DNA of 64,000 bases from Micromonospora coxensis. GTDB lineage: Bacteria > Actinomycetota > Actinomycetes > Mycobacteriales > Micromonosporaceae. The stretch spans positions 1,054,001 through 1,118,000 of the forward strand of contig NZ_LT607753.1 in NCBI RefSeq assembly GCF_900090295.1, in the 5' to 3' direction. The position numbers and the translations under genes were made by a program. Positions 36,622-60,450 of the stretch are shown piece by piece. The notes beneath the pieces were generated by a model that was not told the origin of the DNA, ran no database searches, and saw only the letters and a program-made list of their open reading frames with translations. Position 1 is the stretch's first letter. Every line of letters begins with the position of its first letter.

Positions 36622-36890
36622 CGCTCTCCTCGGGGTTCGGCGGTGGCGCGGATGGCGTCCACCGGGCAGATCTCCAGGCACTCCAGGCAGCCGGTGCACC
36701 GGTCGGCGCGGACGGTCAGCCCGAGCGGGGTGGGACGGATGGCGTGCGTCGGGCAGGTGAGCAGGCAGGCGCCGCAGCCCTGGCAGGCGCCGATGCTCAC
36801 CGGCGCGGACGGGTCCGGCGCGGCGGCCGTGGGCGGGTCCGGCGCGGCGACGGCGCTCGGCGGGGCGGTCGGCGCGGTCGGCGCGGTCAC
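36618..36890 (-). CDS. 2[4Fe-4S] ferredoxin in the cobalamin operon
   Basis: A 90-residue ferredoxin with two four-Cys motifs: CQGCGACLLTCP and CTGCLECLEICP. An Ala/Pro-rich N-terminus of about 30 residues is added. GTG 36890 overlaps the cbiG-cobJ stop (GTGA), though a GTG at 36899 is also possible. It probably donates electrons within B12 synthesis, for example to a precorrin reductase or to reduce Co(II), but no partner is shown by sequence. Confidence 0.88.
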   Translation of the reverse strand: MTAPTAPTAPPSAVAAPDPPTAAAPDPSAPVSIGACQGCGACLLTCPTHAIRPTPLGLTVRADRCTGCLECLEICPVDAIRATAEPRGER

Positions 36891-39073
36891 CGCTGCCACC
36901 GGTAGCCGCGCGGGGTGACCATCCGGCCGGCGACCACCCGGGTCTGTGAGCTGCCGACCACCACCACGCTGTACATGTCGACCACGGCGGGGTCGAGGGT
37001 GGCCACGGTGGCCAGGTGGACCTGTTCACCGTCGCGGCTGGCGTTGCGCACCACGCCGACCGGGGTCGCCGGCGGACGGTGCGCGGCGAAGGTCTTCAGC
37101 ACCGCCCCGAGCTGCCAGTCCCGGGCCCGGCTGCGCGGGTTGTACAGCAACGCCACCAGGTCCGCCTCGGCGGCGGCGGCCACCCGCCGCTCGATGACCT
37201 CCCACGGGGTGTGCAGGTCGGACAGGCTCAGGTACACGTGGTCGTGGCCGATCGGCGCGCCGAGCAGGGCGGCGGCGGCGAGCCCGGCGGTCACCCCGGG
37301 CACCCCGACCACGTCGATGCGCCCGTCGGCGTACTCCAGGGCGGGGCTGGCCATCGCGTACACCCCGGCGTCGCCGGAGCCGACCAGCGCGACCGCCTGC
37401 CCGACGGTGGCCTCGGCGACGGCGGCGCGGGCCCGCTCCTCTTCCGCGCCGAGGCCGCTGGCGAGCACCCGGGTGCCCGGTCGCAGCAGGTCGCGGACCT
37501 GGTCGACGTACTGGTCGAGGCCGACGACCACGGCGGCCCGGCGCAGCTCGGCGACCGCGCGGGGGGTGCGCAGGTCGGGCGCGCCCGGCCCGAGACCGAC
37601 GACCGCCAGCCGGCCGCGCGGGGCGTGCCGGGCGACCGCGACGGTCGCCATCGCCGAGGCGGTCTTCGGCACCAGCAGGGTGCCGCCGCCGGCCAGCGCC
37701 GCCGCCTCGGCGACGCTGGGGGTGCCGACCACGGCGCGGACCACCTCGCTGGGGTGCGGCACGTCGACCGCCGCCAGCTCCGCCGCCGGCCGGGTCTCCA
37801 GGGGTACGCCGAGCGCGCGGGCGGTCGCCAGGATGCCCTCCTCGTCGGCCTTGAGGTCGACGCTGGCCAGGCAGCGCAGGCTGGCCGGGGCCAGGCCGGC
37901 GTCGGCGAGCGCCCGGTGCAGCAGCGCGGAGACCTCGGCGGCGGCGACGCCCCGGCTGGAGCCGATCCCGGCGACCAGCGAGGGTGGGCGCAGCACGGCG
38001 GTCCGCTCGTCCAGCGGCACGATCCGGTCGGTGACCAGCAGCCGCCAGCCGCCGTCGCTGGTTCCGACGTCGCTGGTCCCGCCGTCGCTGGTCCCGCCGT
38101 CGCTGGTCCCGCCGTCGCTGGTCCCGCCGTCGCTGGTCCCGCCGTCGCTGGTCCCGCCGTCGCTGGTCCCGCCGTCGCTGGTCCCGCCGTCGCTGGTCCC
38201 GCCGTCGCTGGTCCCGCCGTCGCTGGTCCCGCCGTCGCTGGTCCCGCCGTCGCTGGTCCCGCCGTCGCTGGTCCCGCCGTCGCTGGTCCCGCCGTCGCTG
38301 GTCCCGCCGTCGCTGGTCCCGCCGTCCGGGTCGGCGCCGTCCGGGTCGGCGCCATCCGGGTCGGCGCCATCCGGGTCGGCGCCGTCCGGGTCGGCGCCGT
38401 GCGCCCGGTGTCGGCCCGCGACACCGGAGCCGGCCGCACCGTCCGCACCGGCCGGCGGGCTCGGGACAGCCGGATCGACGGGGGTCGCCGGGATCTCCGA
38501 AGTCGCCGCATCGGTGGGAGTCGCCGCGTCGTTGGCAATGGTCTCGATCAGGACGTTCGGCGGGAGGGCGGGCAGCGGCCAGGTGGCGTCGGCGAGCAGC
38601 CGGACCGGCTCACCGTCGAGGATCGCCCGGGACACCGCCGCGACGGCCCCCTCGACCGGCCAGCCCAGGGCGTCCAGTCCGGGCAGGCCGACGGCGTCGG
38701 TGGCGGTGGTGACCACCGGGCGGGCGTCGAGCAGCGCGGCCACCTCCCCGGCGAGCGTGTTGGCACCACCCGCGTGCCCGCCGAGCAGGGCGACGGCGTG
38801 CCGCGCCGCCTCGTCCACGACCACCACCGCCGGGTCGGTGCGCTTGTCGCCGAGCAGCGGCGCGAGGATCCGCACCACCGCCCCGGTGGCCAGGAACGCC
38901 ACCACCGCGCCGCACTCCGTCCACGCGGTGCGCAGCGCGTCGGCCACGCCGGTCGACTCGACGAGCCGTGCGTGCGGCCAGGCGTCGGCGAGGATCCGGG
39001 CGTGCCGGCGGCCGGCGGCGGTGGCCGCCACGAGTCCGACGGTCATCGGGCCGCCCGGCGTAGTGGCCGTCAC
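36887..39073 (-). CDS. cbiG-cobJ: CbiG-CobJ fusion with a 115-residue repeat insert
   Basis: A 728-residue protein. Residues about 1-185 are the CbiG N-terminal part (cobalt-precorrin-5A hydrolase; [16 protein letters not shown]), and residues about 345-480 are the CbiG C-terminal domain ([17 protein letters not shown]). Between them is a low-complexity block (about 190-340) made of five GADPD and eighteen GTSDG units. From about 488 on it is CobJ, precorrin-3B C17-methyltransferase ([25 protein letters not shown]). Start is GTG 39073, overlapping the stop of the 45-codon ORF; an ATG at 39046 is an alternative. Ring contraction and acetaldehyde loss are joined in one chain. Confidence 0.93.
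38055..38399. repeat. In-frame 15-bp minisatellite, 23 units, within cbiG-cobJ
   Basis: Eighteen units of TCGCTGGTCCCGCCG (17 identical, one variant at 38055) followed by five units of TCCGGGTCGGCGCCG, all 15 bp and all in frame. They encode GTSDG and GADPD (read on the minus strand). The unit identity suggests recent expansion by slippage or unequal exchange. Confidence 0.97.
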
Positions 39074-44965: not shown

Positions 44966-45573
44966 CACTCGATGCCCTTCTGGCCCTTCTGGCCGGCGTC
45001 CATCGGGTGCTTCACCTTGGTCAGCTCGGCGACCAGGTCGGCCGCCTCGACCAGGCGCGGGTCGGCGTCCCGGCCGGTGATCACCACGTGCTGGAAGCCG
45101 GGCCGCTCGGCGAGGGTCCGCACCACCTCGTCGACGTCCACCCAGCCCCACTTCATCGGGTAGGTGAACTCGTCGAGCACGTACAGGCCGTAGCGTTGCG
45201 CGGCGAGGTCCCGCTGGATCTGCCGCCAGCCCTCCAGGGCGTCGGCGGCGTGGTCGGCCTCGCCGCCGCGCTGAATCCACGACCAGCCCTCGCCCATCTT
45301 GTGCCAGGCGACCGGTGCGCCCTGGCCGGTGCGCTCGTGCACCTCGCCGAGGGCCCGGAACGCGGCCTCCTCGCCGACCCGCCAGCGGGCGCTCTTGACG
45401 AACTGGAACACCCCGATCGGCAGCCCGGCGGTCCAGGCGCGCAACGCCAGCCCGAACGCGGCGGTCGACTTGCCCTTCATCGCTCCGGTGTGGACGACGA
45501 CCAGCGGACGGTTGCGCCGCTGCCGCGTCGTCAACCCGTCGGCCGGTACGTGGGACGGCTTGCCCTGCGGCAT
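44962..45573 (-). CDS. cobO: Corrinoid adenosyltransferase (CobA/CobO type)
   Basis: A 203-residue ATP:cob(I)yrinate adenosyltransferase. P-loop VVHTGAMKGKSTAAFGLALR at about 26-45, FQFVKSARWRVGEE and LDEFTYPMKWGWVDVDEV match the CobO family. Its ATG and the chelatase stop share one base (TGATG at 45571-45575). Adenosylation follows cobalt insertion and diamide formation, fitting its neighbours. Confidence 0.96.
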   Translation of the reverse strand: MPQGKPSHVPADGLTTRQRRNRPLVVVHTGAMKGKSTAAFGLALRAWTAGLPIGVFQFVKSARWRVGEEAAFRALGEVHERTGQGAPVAWHKMGEGWSWIQRGGEADHAADALEGWRQIQRDLAAQRYGLYVLDEFTYPMKWGWVDVDEVVRTLAERPGFQHVVITGRDADPRLVEAADLVAELTKVKHPMDAGQKGQKGIEW

Positions 45574-47873
45574 CAGGCGACACTCCTCGTGGTGGTGGGG
45601 ACGGTGGCGGACGGCGATGCCGGCCGCGTCCGGGGACGCGACGGCGCGGCGGCGAGGCCGGCGAGCGGGTCGGCGGCCACCGCGTCGAGCCGGTGGTGCT
45701 CCGCGCCGAGCTGGGTGGCGAGGCGGCGGGCCAGGCCGAGGTGGACCGGCCCGGACTCGCAGTCGACGACGACGCAGGGCGCGCCGGTGGCGGCCAGCAC
45801 GGCCGCCGCACGGGCGGCCCGGTCCAGCGGGCGGGTCCCGGCGGTGGCCCGGCCGTCGGTGACGATCAGCACCAGGGGGCGGCGGCGCGGGTCGCGCAAC
45901 CGCTCCACCCGCAGCAGGTCGGCGGCGGCGAGCAGCCCTTCGGCGAGCGGGGTGCGCCCGCCGGTGGGCAGCTCGGCCAGCCGTGCCGAGGCGGCCAGCA
46001 CGGAGGAGGTGGCCGGCAGCAGGACCTGTGCGCCGGTGGCCCGGAACGCGACCACCGCGACCTTGTCCCGACGCTGGTAGGCGTCGGTGAGCAGGGCGAG
46101 CACCGCGCCCTTGACGGCGGACATCCGCTGCCGGGCCCCCATCGACCCGCTGGCGTCGACCACGAACAGCACCAGGTTGCCCTCGCGGCCCTCCCGGACC
46201 GCCTCGCGCAGGTCGTCGGGGCGCAGCACGAGCGGCCCGTCGTGCCGGCCCCGGCCGGCCTGGCGCGGGGCGGCGGCCCGCAGCGTCGCCGGCAGGTGCA
46301 GCGCGCCGGGGCGGCCGGCGGGCACCCGGGCCCCGGTGGTCCGGCCCCGGCCGGTCCGCGCCCGCGACCGCCGCCCGGGCACGCCGTCGCCGACCCCGGG
46401 CGCGGTGAACAGCCGCGCCGTCAACCCCGGCTCGGGTACGGCGACCGCCTGCGCCCGGCGCGGGACGTCCCCGGTGCGCGACCGGCCGTCGTCACCGTCG
46501 CGGGCGCCTGCCGTGCCGTCGGCCGGCCCGCCGGGCTGGTCCGGCCCGCCGGCCCGCCCGTCGCGCCGGTCGTCGTCCACGTCCCACCGGTCGGCCGCCT
46601 CCGGCCACCGGTGCGCGGGGTCGCCGTCGCGCGAGAAATCGCGGTCCTCGGGCTGCGGCCCGGGGCCGTCCCCGTGCCGTGCCGAGGGGTCGCCGGCGTC
46701 CGGTCCACGGTCCTGCCCGGTCGTAGCCGGACCCGCGTCAGGGTCGACGTCCGGGTCCCGGCCACCGTCGCCACCGGGTCCACCCGGTCCCTCGGGGCCA
46801 CCCGGACCACCGGGCGCCGGCCCGCCGCCGGGGCCGTCGTCGTCCGGGTCGTCGGGGTGTTCCTCGCGGGCCCGCTCCAGCGCCTCGTCGAGCCGCTTGT
46901 CGTCCAGGCCGGGGGTGTCGAACGGATCCCGGCGACGCCGGTGCGGCAGGGCCAGCCGGGCGGCCACCCGGACGTCCTCGGCGGTCACCCGCTCCCGCCC
47001 CTGCCAGGCGGCGTGCGCCACGGCGGCACGGGCGGTGACGATGTCGGCGCGCATCCCGTCGACGTCGAACGCGGCGCACACCTCGGCGATCTGCCGCAGC
47101 GCCGCGTCGGGCAGCAGCACGTGCTCCAGCCGCGCGCGGGCGGCGGCCACCCGGCGGGCGACCTGCGCGTCGGCGTCGACCCAGCCGGCGGCGAAGCCGG
47201 CCGGGTCGGCGTCGGCGGCGAGCCGGCGGCGGACCACCTCGACCCGGACGGCGGGGTCGCGGCTGGCGGCCACCTCGACGGTGAGCCCGAACCGGTCGAG
47301 CAGCTGCGGGCGCAGCTCCCCCTCCTCCGGGTTCATCGTGCCGACCAGCAGGAACCGGGCGGCGTGGCTGACCGAGACGCCCTCCCGCTCGACGTGGCAG
47401 CGGCCCATCGCGGCGGCGTCGAGCAGCAGGTCGACCAGGTGGTCGTGGAGCAGGTTGACCTCGTCGACGTAGAGCACGCCGCGGTGGGCGGCGGCGAGCA
47501 GCCCCGGCTCGAAGGCGCGTACCCCCTCGGCGAGGGCCTTCTCCAGGTCGAGCGAGCCGACCACCCGGTCCTCGGCGGCGCCGACCGGCAGCTCGACCAG
47601 GCGGGCCGGGCGGCGCTCGGCCGGCGACCCGGCCGGGTGCGGACCGTCCGGGCAGCCGGGGTCCACGGCGGCCGGGTCGCAGCCGAAGCGGCAGCCGGCC
47701 ACCCGGTCCACCGGGGGCAGCAGCGCCGCGAGGGCCCGCACGGCGGTGGACTTGGCGGTGCCCTTCTCACCCCGGACGAGCACCCCGCCGATGGCCGGGC
47801 TGACCGCGTTGAGCAGCAGGGCCAGACGCATGTCGTCCATGCCGAGCACCGCCGAGAAGGGGAACCCGCTCAC
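45573..47873 (-). CDS. ChlI-ChlD-type AAA+/VWA chelatase subunit (cobaltochelatase partner of CobN)
   Basis: A 766-residue protein joining two magnesium-chelatase subunit types. Residues about 1-330 are the AAA+ ATPase (Walker [37 protein letters not shown]). An acidic, Gly/Pro-rich linker runs to about 540. The C-terminus is a VWA domain with MIDAS motif [17 protein letters not shown]. It supplies ATP-driven force for metal insertion, replacing separate CobS and CobT. GTG 47873, with GGAGGAG 5 nt upstream inside the 59-bp repeat, overlaps the last mini-ORF stop. Confidence 0.93.
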
Positions 47874-47932
47874 TGCGACTCCTCCGTTCGCGACTGCGGG
47901 GCTCGCAGAACCGGCTCACTCCTCGCGCTCAC
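47870..47932 (-). CDS. Mini-ORF 3 (20 codons) of the tandem coupling repeat
   Basis: Starts GTG AGC at 47932, ends TGA at 47870, encodes a 20-residue peptide beginning [15 protein letters not shown]. Identical to the other two. Its stop overlaps the GTG of the chelatase gene; its 3' part carries that gene's GGAGGAG. Translation is inferred from the spacing only. Confidence 0.5.
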
Positions 47933-48046
47933 TGCGACTCCTCCGTTCGCGACTGCGGGGCTCGCAGAACCGGCTCACTCCTCGCGCTCACTGCGACTCC
48001 TCCGTTCGCGACTGCGGGGCTCGCAGAACCGGCTCACTCCTCGCGC

Positions 48047-48047
<1 letters not shown>
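47871..48047. repeat. Three identical tandem 59-bp units between cobN and the chelatase gene
   Basis: Copies begin at 47871, 47930 and 47989, with identical sequence and a partial fourth (CACTGC) at the cobN end. Each contains a GGAGGAG, a GTG start, and a small CTGCG/CGCAG hairpin. They fill the whole cobN-chelatase gap. It is not a CRISPR array: there are no spacers. Confidence 0.98.
47929..47991 (-). CDS. Mini-ORF 2 (20 codons) of the tandem coupling repeat
   Basis: GTG at 47991 to TGA at 47929, same 20-residue product as its neighbours. The start overlaps the stop of mini-ORF 1 and the stop overlaps the start of mini-ORF 3, each by GTGA. GGAGGAG lies 5 nt before the start. Confidence 0.5.
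   Translation of the reverse strand: MSARSEPVLRAPQSRTEESQ

Positions 48048-48050
<3 letters not shown>
47988..48050 (-). CDS. Mini-ORF 1 (20 codons) of the tandem coupling repeat
   Basis: GTG at 48050 overlaps the cobN stop (GTGA 48047-48050); GGAGG from the cobN end lies 7 nt upstream. TGA at 47988. Same product as the other two. It is the first link of a chain cobN, three mini-ORFs, chelatase. Confidence 0.5.
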
Positions 48051-51715
<3,665 letters not shown>

Positions 51716-60042: not shown

Positions 60043-60300
60043 CCCCCCACCACCCCTCCCAGCCGAGCCACCCCGCCCCTCCCGCCGGCCAACCGCCCGC
60101 CCCCAGCCACCCCTACCCCACACGCTCCCGAGCCGACCCCGCCCCGCCCTCACGCTGCCCCCGTCCCCCCTCGCGCTGCCCCCCGCTGCCCCCGCGCGCC
60201 CCGCACCTCGCACTGCCCCTACCCCGCCCTCACGCGCCGCCCCCCCACCCCGCCCTCCCACACGCCGCCCTCGCACGCCGCTCTCGCGCCGCCCTCGCGC

Positions 60301-60435
60301 CGCCCTCCCACGCGCCGCCCTCGCACGCGCCGCCCTCGCACGCGCCGCCCTCGCACGCGCCGCCCTCGCACGCGCCGCCCTCGCACGCGCCGCCCTCGCA
60401 CGCGCCGCCCTCGCACGCGCCGCCCTCGCACGCGC
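60301..60435. repeat. 15-bp tandem repeat, nine units
   Basis: One variant (60301-60315) then eight identical units of CGCCCTCGCACGCGC. No spacers and no coding role. It ends 16 bp before the palindrome. Confidence 0.95.
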
Positions 60436-60450
60436 CGCCCTCGCGCTGCG

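Follow-up and report, generated by a model that had tools for sequence, protein, structure and literature searches.

A dispersed 59-nt repeat at gene starts in Micromonospora, probably a MIRU-like element that ribosomes can pass

The three identical 59-nt units that separate cobN from a chelatase gene in Micromonospora coxensis belong to a dispersed repeat family and are not a local invention. The same genome harbors the unit at 28 places (BLAST, E ≤ 1e-3), the cobN junction included, which rules out a minisatellite confined to a single locus. Judging from the sequences compared here, the unit is likely to be a short interspersed element of the Micromonosporaceae, similar in kind to the mycobacterial MIRU, that inserts at start codons and persists as termination and reinitiation can carry the ribosome past it. 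Throughout, the window denotes the 64,000-nt stretch of contig NZ_LT607753.1 (positions 1,054,001 to 1,118,000) that was analysed, and coordinates are given within it.

The cobN junction and its repeat family

On the minus strand cobN is followed by the three units and then by the chelatase gene:

48047..51715, minus strand: cobN (PF02514), with its TGA within the first GTGA
48047..48050, minus strand: GTGA join of the cobN stop and the start of mini-ORF 1; the supposed insertion point, where relatives show an empty ATGA or GTGA overlap
47992..48050, minus strand: unit 1, 59 nt (mini-ORF 47988-48050, 20 codons)
47933..47991, minus strand: unit 2, identical (mini-ORF 47929-47991)
47874..47932, minus strand: unit 3, identical (mini-ORF 47870-47932)
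47870..47873, minus strand: GTGA join of the mini-ORF 3 stop and the chelatase start, as read from the sequence
45573..47873, minus strand: gene for a cobaltochelatase-type AAA + VWA subunit of 766 aa (AAA-lid and VWA domain matches)

The units (3 x 59 nt, minus strand, 47874-48050, pairwise identity 100%) each read GTG AGC GCG AGG AGT GAG CCG GTT CTG CGA GCC CCG CAG TCG CGA ACG GAG GAG TCG CA, followed by GTGA. The mini-ORF of each unit is a GTG, 19 further codons and a TGA (63 nt), and its stop lies within the GTGA that opens the next ORF. The original prediction of three identical tandem units, each with a GTG-started ORF of 20 codons, is borne out by the letters and by Tandem Repeats Finder, which gives the exact 59-nt triple a score of 374; such an array is not due to chance. 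The predicted overlaps are also present, with the cobN stop in 48050-48047 and the chelatase start in 47873-47870; the "five links" of the predicted relay are, however, four NTGA joins connecting five ORFs (cobN, the three mini-ORFs and the chelatase gene). A GGAGGAG does occur in each unit, as had been noted, but it is located at the 3' end and thus serves the next start and not the start of its own unit. For the first mini-ORF, a GGAGGA inside the 3' end of cobN would be the Shine-Dalgarno sequence. The nearest named relative of this CobN is that of M. halophytica (96%).

The suspicion of a recent duplication fared well: the three units are identical among themselves and share 86-93% identity with their ten next-best BLAST matches in the genome, so the tandem growth at cobN looks local. 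The window contains two further tandem arrays. At 38049-38400, within a minus-strand ORF (36887-39073) whose product looks from its sequence like a cobalamin CbiG-CbiH-type fusion, a near-perfect 15-bp array encodes pentapeptides (GGTSD many times, then GADPD) as a linker; at 60132-60446 there is a long, degenerate and GC-rich array of about 14 copies of a 15-bp unit.

Whether the unit occurs elsewhere had been left to further searches. When fetched loci were scanned with a profile (nhmmer, E < 1e-3), this census recognised 29 arrays with 44 units in the M. coxensis genome (G000), 23 arrays with 48 units in G012 and 61 arrays with 87 units in G047. Measured against a sequence-only model (R1) built from 11 unit variants, the loci take in every place matched at E ≤ 1e-3 in G012 and in G047 and, for G000, nearly every place matched at E ≤ 1. 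The three genomes together contain 113 arrays of one to six mini-ORFs each; the longest array noted, with six units, is in G012. R1 has matches in all 61 sampled genomes of the genus, M. coxensis included, with 10-87 matches per genome; since few candidates were scored per genome in these large searches, the counts are minimum values and some weak matches may have been missed. Within the Micromonosporaceae 59 of 121 genomes and 25 of 44 genera have matches, and across the class sample 3 of 197 genomes and 1 of 90 genera, while in the other 194 genomes nothing scored with the model at E ≤ 1e-4. A second subfamily, found in M. coxensis itself at L109, L100 and L113, differs in the middle of the unit (AACGCAGCGGAGCGGAGTCCC or AGTGCAGCGGAGCGGAG), and the units of L109 are 57 nt long. 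The titles and abstracts retrieved for Micromonospora, its family or the unit's letters hold no description of this repeat family, subscription journals being mostly outside this coverage.

Position and reading frame at gene starts

The arrays are placed at gene starts and in sense. The downstream gene lies on the same strand in 110 of the 113 arrays of the three-genome census, and in 72 of the 113 the upstream gene ends precisely on the TGA within the NTGA that opens the first unit. Co-directional gene pairs without a unit, taken from the window and the fetched loci, show a possible -4 overlap in 21 of 100 cases (Fisher p 3e-10 against the arrays, a value that is indicative given the kinship of the copies). 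For the remaining 41 arrays the upstream stop falls outside the first NTGA: 19 have no called upstream stop or NTGA anchor, in L108, L233 and L256 the upstream frame continues through the first unit, and in the rest the stop lies elsewhere. At L005, L103 and L116 units stand at starts without any overlap with an upstream gene, and the target therefore seems to be the start codon, beyond the stop/start overlap alone. Unit-bearing junctions in M. coxensis include nadB-nadC, pdxS-pdxT, gap-pgk, nuoD-nuoE and one that resembles pyrC-carA (names read off the protein sequences). Top-hit loci from other genomes, which favour the standard unit length and share one array (L171) with the census, give a similar picture: 40 of 40 arrays are in sense (33 from the genus, 7 from other genera), and the upstream stop sits at the NTGA in 26 of the 33 and in 3 of the 7.

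The length of a unit, taken modulo 3, determines what a ribosome would meet at its end. With a remainder of 2 the stop of the mini-ORF falls on the next start (relay), with 0 the mini-ORF is read through in frame, and with 1 it would run out of frame into the gene (blocking). Gene frames were assigned by codon usage, the score having been trained on 11,091 codons from the window, so the counts do not depend on which in-frame start is picked. Between the last unit and the gene the remainder is 2 in 80 cases, 0 in 17 and 1 in 2 (n = 99); between units it is 2 in 34, 0 in 26 and 1 in 1 (n = 61). Among the top-hit loci the blocking frame occurs in none of 39 last spans, and internal spans have a remainder of 1 in 1 of 17 cases within the genus and in 0 of 6 in other genera.

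One could assume that this rule is purely mechanical, the element spreading at a fixed length of 59 nt without any selection on translation, and indeed 56 of the 99 last spans and 32 of the 61 internal spans are exactly 59 nt long. However, the blocking frame is still avoided when only last spans that deviate from 59 nt are counted (remainder 2 in 24, 0 in 17 and 1 in 2, n = 43; binomial 7e-6, with copies that are not fully independent). Among spans in frame 2 or 0, moreover, the share of frame 0 is higher from unit to unit (26 of 60) than ahead of the gene (17 of 97; Fisher p 8e-4). Such an in-frame excess between units is expected if an N-terminal extension is less welcome on a real protein than on a mini-ORF. 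A mechanical origin of the rule thus appears improbable to us. The near absence of the blocking frame across the family suggests that ribosome passage matters and that passage through the units is under selection, the frame rule being the sign of it that sequences alone can give.

A simulated walk of a terminating and reinitiating ribosome covered 99 of the 113 arrays; of the others, three have the downstream gene on the opposite strand, ten have no usable unit start and one has no gene start. The walk ended in an exact NTGA join to the gene in 71 of the 99 arrays and on a stop within 9 nt before the gene in 11, while 16 were in frame with the gene and one overshot. Removing a single tail nucleotide in silico makes the walk stop more than 4 nt into the gene in 81 of the 99 arrays, as compared to 1 of 99 when unaltered. 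At L007, the pdxS-pdxT junction of M. coxensis, two units are followed by an additional stretch that prolongs the chain and terminates precisely in the ATGA of pdxT, and a 2-nt deletion in the first unit is relieved by an internal GTGA. The relay originally envisaged for cobN and the chelatase gene is real as a geometry, and the family-wide scarcity of the blocking frame speaks for it, but it is not specific to this gene pair, as the element precedes many unrelated genes.

Selection is unlikely to act on the peptide as a product. Minor letters in the core of 60 units have frequencies of 0.274, 0.219 and 0.25 at the three codon positions, which thus vary alike, and the second subfamily encodes another peptide. 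A conserved micropeptide was rejected for these reasons; judged by the letters, the mini-ORF peptide is probably without function.

Turnover at orthologous junctions and the arrival of units

The comparison of copy number at the cobN junction covered 40 loci, the window and 39 of a set of 80 loci (all those of Micromonospora and Salinispora except L055, which ends before the junction). Zero, one, two and three units are present in 24, 9, 6 and 1 of them, respectively. The copy number differs between close relatives and is not conserved among them. Nineteen of the 24 loci without units have a plain ATGA or GTGA overlap, four are from Salinispora, and one (L081) contains a different insert of about 170 bp with no match to the unit. 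A CobN tree from a quick search requires a minimum of 13 changes in unit presence (36 rows, without Salinispora) and 16 in unit number (40 rows). At nadB-nadC, 17 of 30 loci (from 30 of the 41 genomes searched) contain one to four units. Both junctions examined therefore provide filled and empty orthologous sites; the empty site is an NTGA, and the filled site, with few exceptions, has an NTGA at both ends.

Of the 16 cobN loci with units that were scored, 8 have a last unit that reads in frame into the chelatase, for which no stop and restart is needed, and the other 8 have the relay form. These observations bear on the original idea that copy number tunes the ratio of CobN to its ATPase partner. 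If the copy number were a selected rheostat, each reinitiation step would lose some ribosomes, and the presence of three units would keep the chelatase low relative to CobN. None of the three M. coxensis units has a broken relay, and the unit number does vary among species. However, no unit is recognised at 24 of the 40 loci, relatives carry zero, one or two copies, half of the scored unit-bearing loci have forms that need no restart, the number changes between close relatives, and the same element is found ahead of many unrelated genes. We regard a selected rheostat as quite improbable; a role in the CobN:chelatase ratio is possible but unsupported, and the tuning as first stated finds no support in these data.

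In the four Salinispora loci (L030, L033, L036 and L039) the chelatase has at its N-terminus, in frame, a stretch much like a decayed unit; the unit profile scores only L030 among the four. We read this stretch as the fused relic of a unit.

With regard to the arrival of units, the base before the NTG is the same on the left and right side in 52 of 80 two-sided NTGA sites, as compared to 24.4 in shuffled data (z 7.0). The agreement is weaker at -2 and -3, and 4 of the 80 sites agree over 12-13 of 15 bases. Taken genome by genome, the excess is present in G000 and G047; in G012 alone it is not (163 of 2000 shuffles reach the value). SD-like 4-mers are found in 78 of 89 unit tails against a shuffled mean of 57.8, using a permissive set of 4-mers. 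The agreement before the NTG and the SD-like tails fit an insertion that would duplicate the start site and leave the downstream gene a start and often an SD-like tail. When flank and tail were compared within a junction, the outcome was 2 of 5000 shuffles at nadC (12 rows, with a unit pattern that misses decayed units) and 48 of 5000 at cobN (16 rows), both being confounded by shared species descent. Single sites (nadB-nadC of M. coxensis, and L009 and L013 among the cobN loci) make a longer target duplication, one that takes in the entire Shine-Dalgarno region, look appealing, but the position-wise test supports a short one.

The course of events that we favour would thus begin with an insertion at a start site that duplicates a few bases there. 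A ribosome finishing the upstream gene would translate the mini-ORF or mini-ORFs, terminate on the next start codon and reinitiate, and the insertion would in consequence be nearly neutral for the downstream gene. Insertions or changes in length that block the passage of ribosomes would be purged by selection, and tandem arrays would expand and shrink through local duplication and deletion.

Alternative functions and comparison with known elements

The units might instead represent a portable promoter for the downstream gene, as one study reports for the MIRUs of senX3-regX3, which in H37Rv comprise three identical 77-bp units (PMC4213456). Besides this mycobacterial precedent, the position of the arrays, nearly always in sense upstream of a gene, would agree with a promoter. 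However, the frame rule would then be needless, and a promoter and terminator consensus scan of 47700-48200, which is not made for actinobacterial promoters, returned nothing and in particular no sigma-70-type site. We consider a promoter very unlikely as the explanation of the family.

A structured RNA or REP-type hairpin that acts as an attenuator or processing site is hardly credible, as the weak consensus stem that is predicted shows a two-sided change in 1 of 11 pairs, four single units fold no better than their shuffles (z 1.42, 0.37, -0.19 and 0.92), 47000-49000 is without an Rfam match, and the genome has no Y1 transposase match. REP and BIME elements are short, dispersed and extragenic, form a stable palindromic hairpin and are associated with a Y1 (RAYT) transposase encoded in the genome. 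The 59-nt unit is likewise short, dispersed and outside genes; in contrast to REP and BIME, it stands in sense at starts, has no hairpin better than shuffled sequences and occurs in a genome without a Y1 transposase match. Given the folding scores and the 0 matches to PF01797 in M. coxensis, in a search that was positive in 5 of 14 control genomes, an identity with REP/RAYT was rejected.

The closest likeness is to MIRU, for which Supply et al. (1997) reportedly named the DTGA sites. Like the 59-nt unit, MIRUs are short and dispersed and occur in head-to-tail copies, comparable to the 44 units in 29 arrays of M. coxensis; they insert at start codons with the unit ORF at -4 spacing, which corresponds to the NTGA join to the gene in 71 of the 99 arrays walked here; and they are apparently mobile, a property mirrored by the cobN and nadB-nadC junctions, which carry units in some relatives and lack them in others. 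The MIRU lengths of 77 and 53 share with 59 the remainder 2 (mod 3). The likeness is one of description and not of sequence alignment: the host family is another one, the unit is 59 nt long instead of 77 or 53, and its model matches a single genus among the 90 of the class sample. For the 59-nt unit, in-frame read-through variants and the frame rule have also been counted. In PMC12548453, ribosome-passing behaviour is attributed to the mycobacterial repeats, and ordinary -4 (NTGA) overlapping gene pairs are described with translational coupling. The units use the same join as these pairs, but in the 59-nt arrays it is a repeat that brings the join along and multiplies it.

A bolder reading is that these repeats represent a second class of elements that insert at start codons and let ribosomes pass. 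This class would have arisen independently, without sequence kinship to MIRU, and would have spread through the operons of one bacterial family to up to tens of copies per genome. The arrays would then be evolvable relays in which the number of units and the length of the tail set stoichiometry and N-termini, and the Salinispora chelatases would represent a domesticated end state. We think this unlikely.

The more modest interpretation as a MIRU-like interspersed element already has consequences. A last unit of 60 or 57 nt continues in frame into the coding sequence behind it, so automated gene prediction may put starts in the wrong place at such junctions. A principle described for mycobacteria would be extended to a repeat family present in all 61 sampled Micromonospora genomes, and the 113 arrays in three genomes, together with orthologous junctions with and without units, offer a natural experiment on translational coupling.
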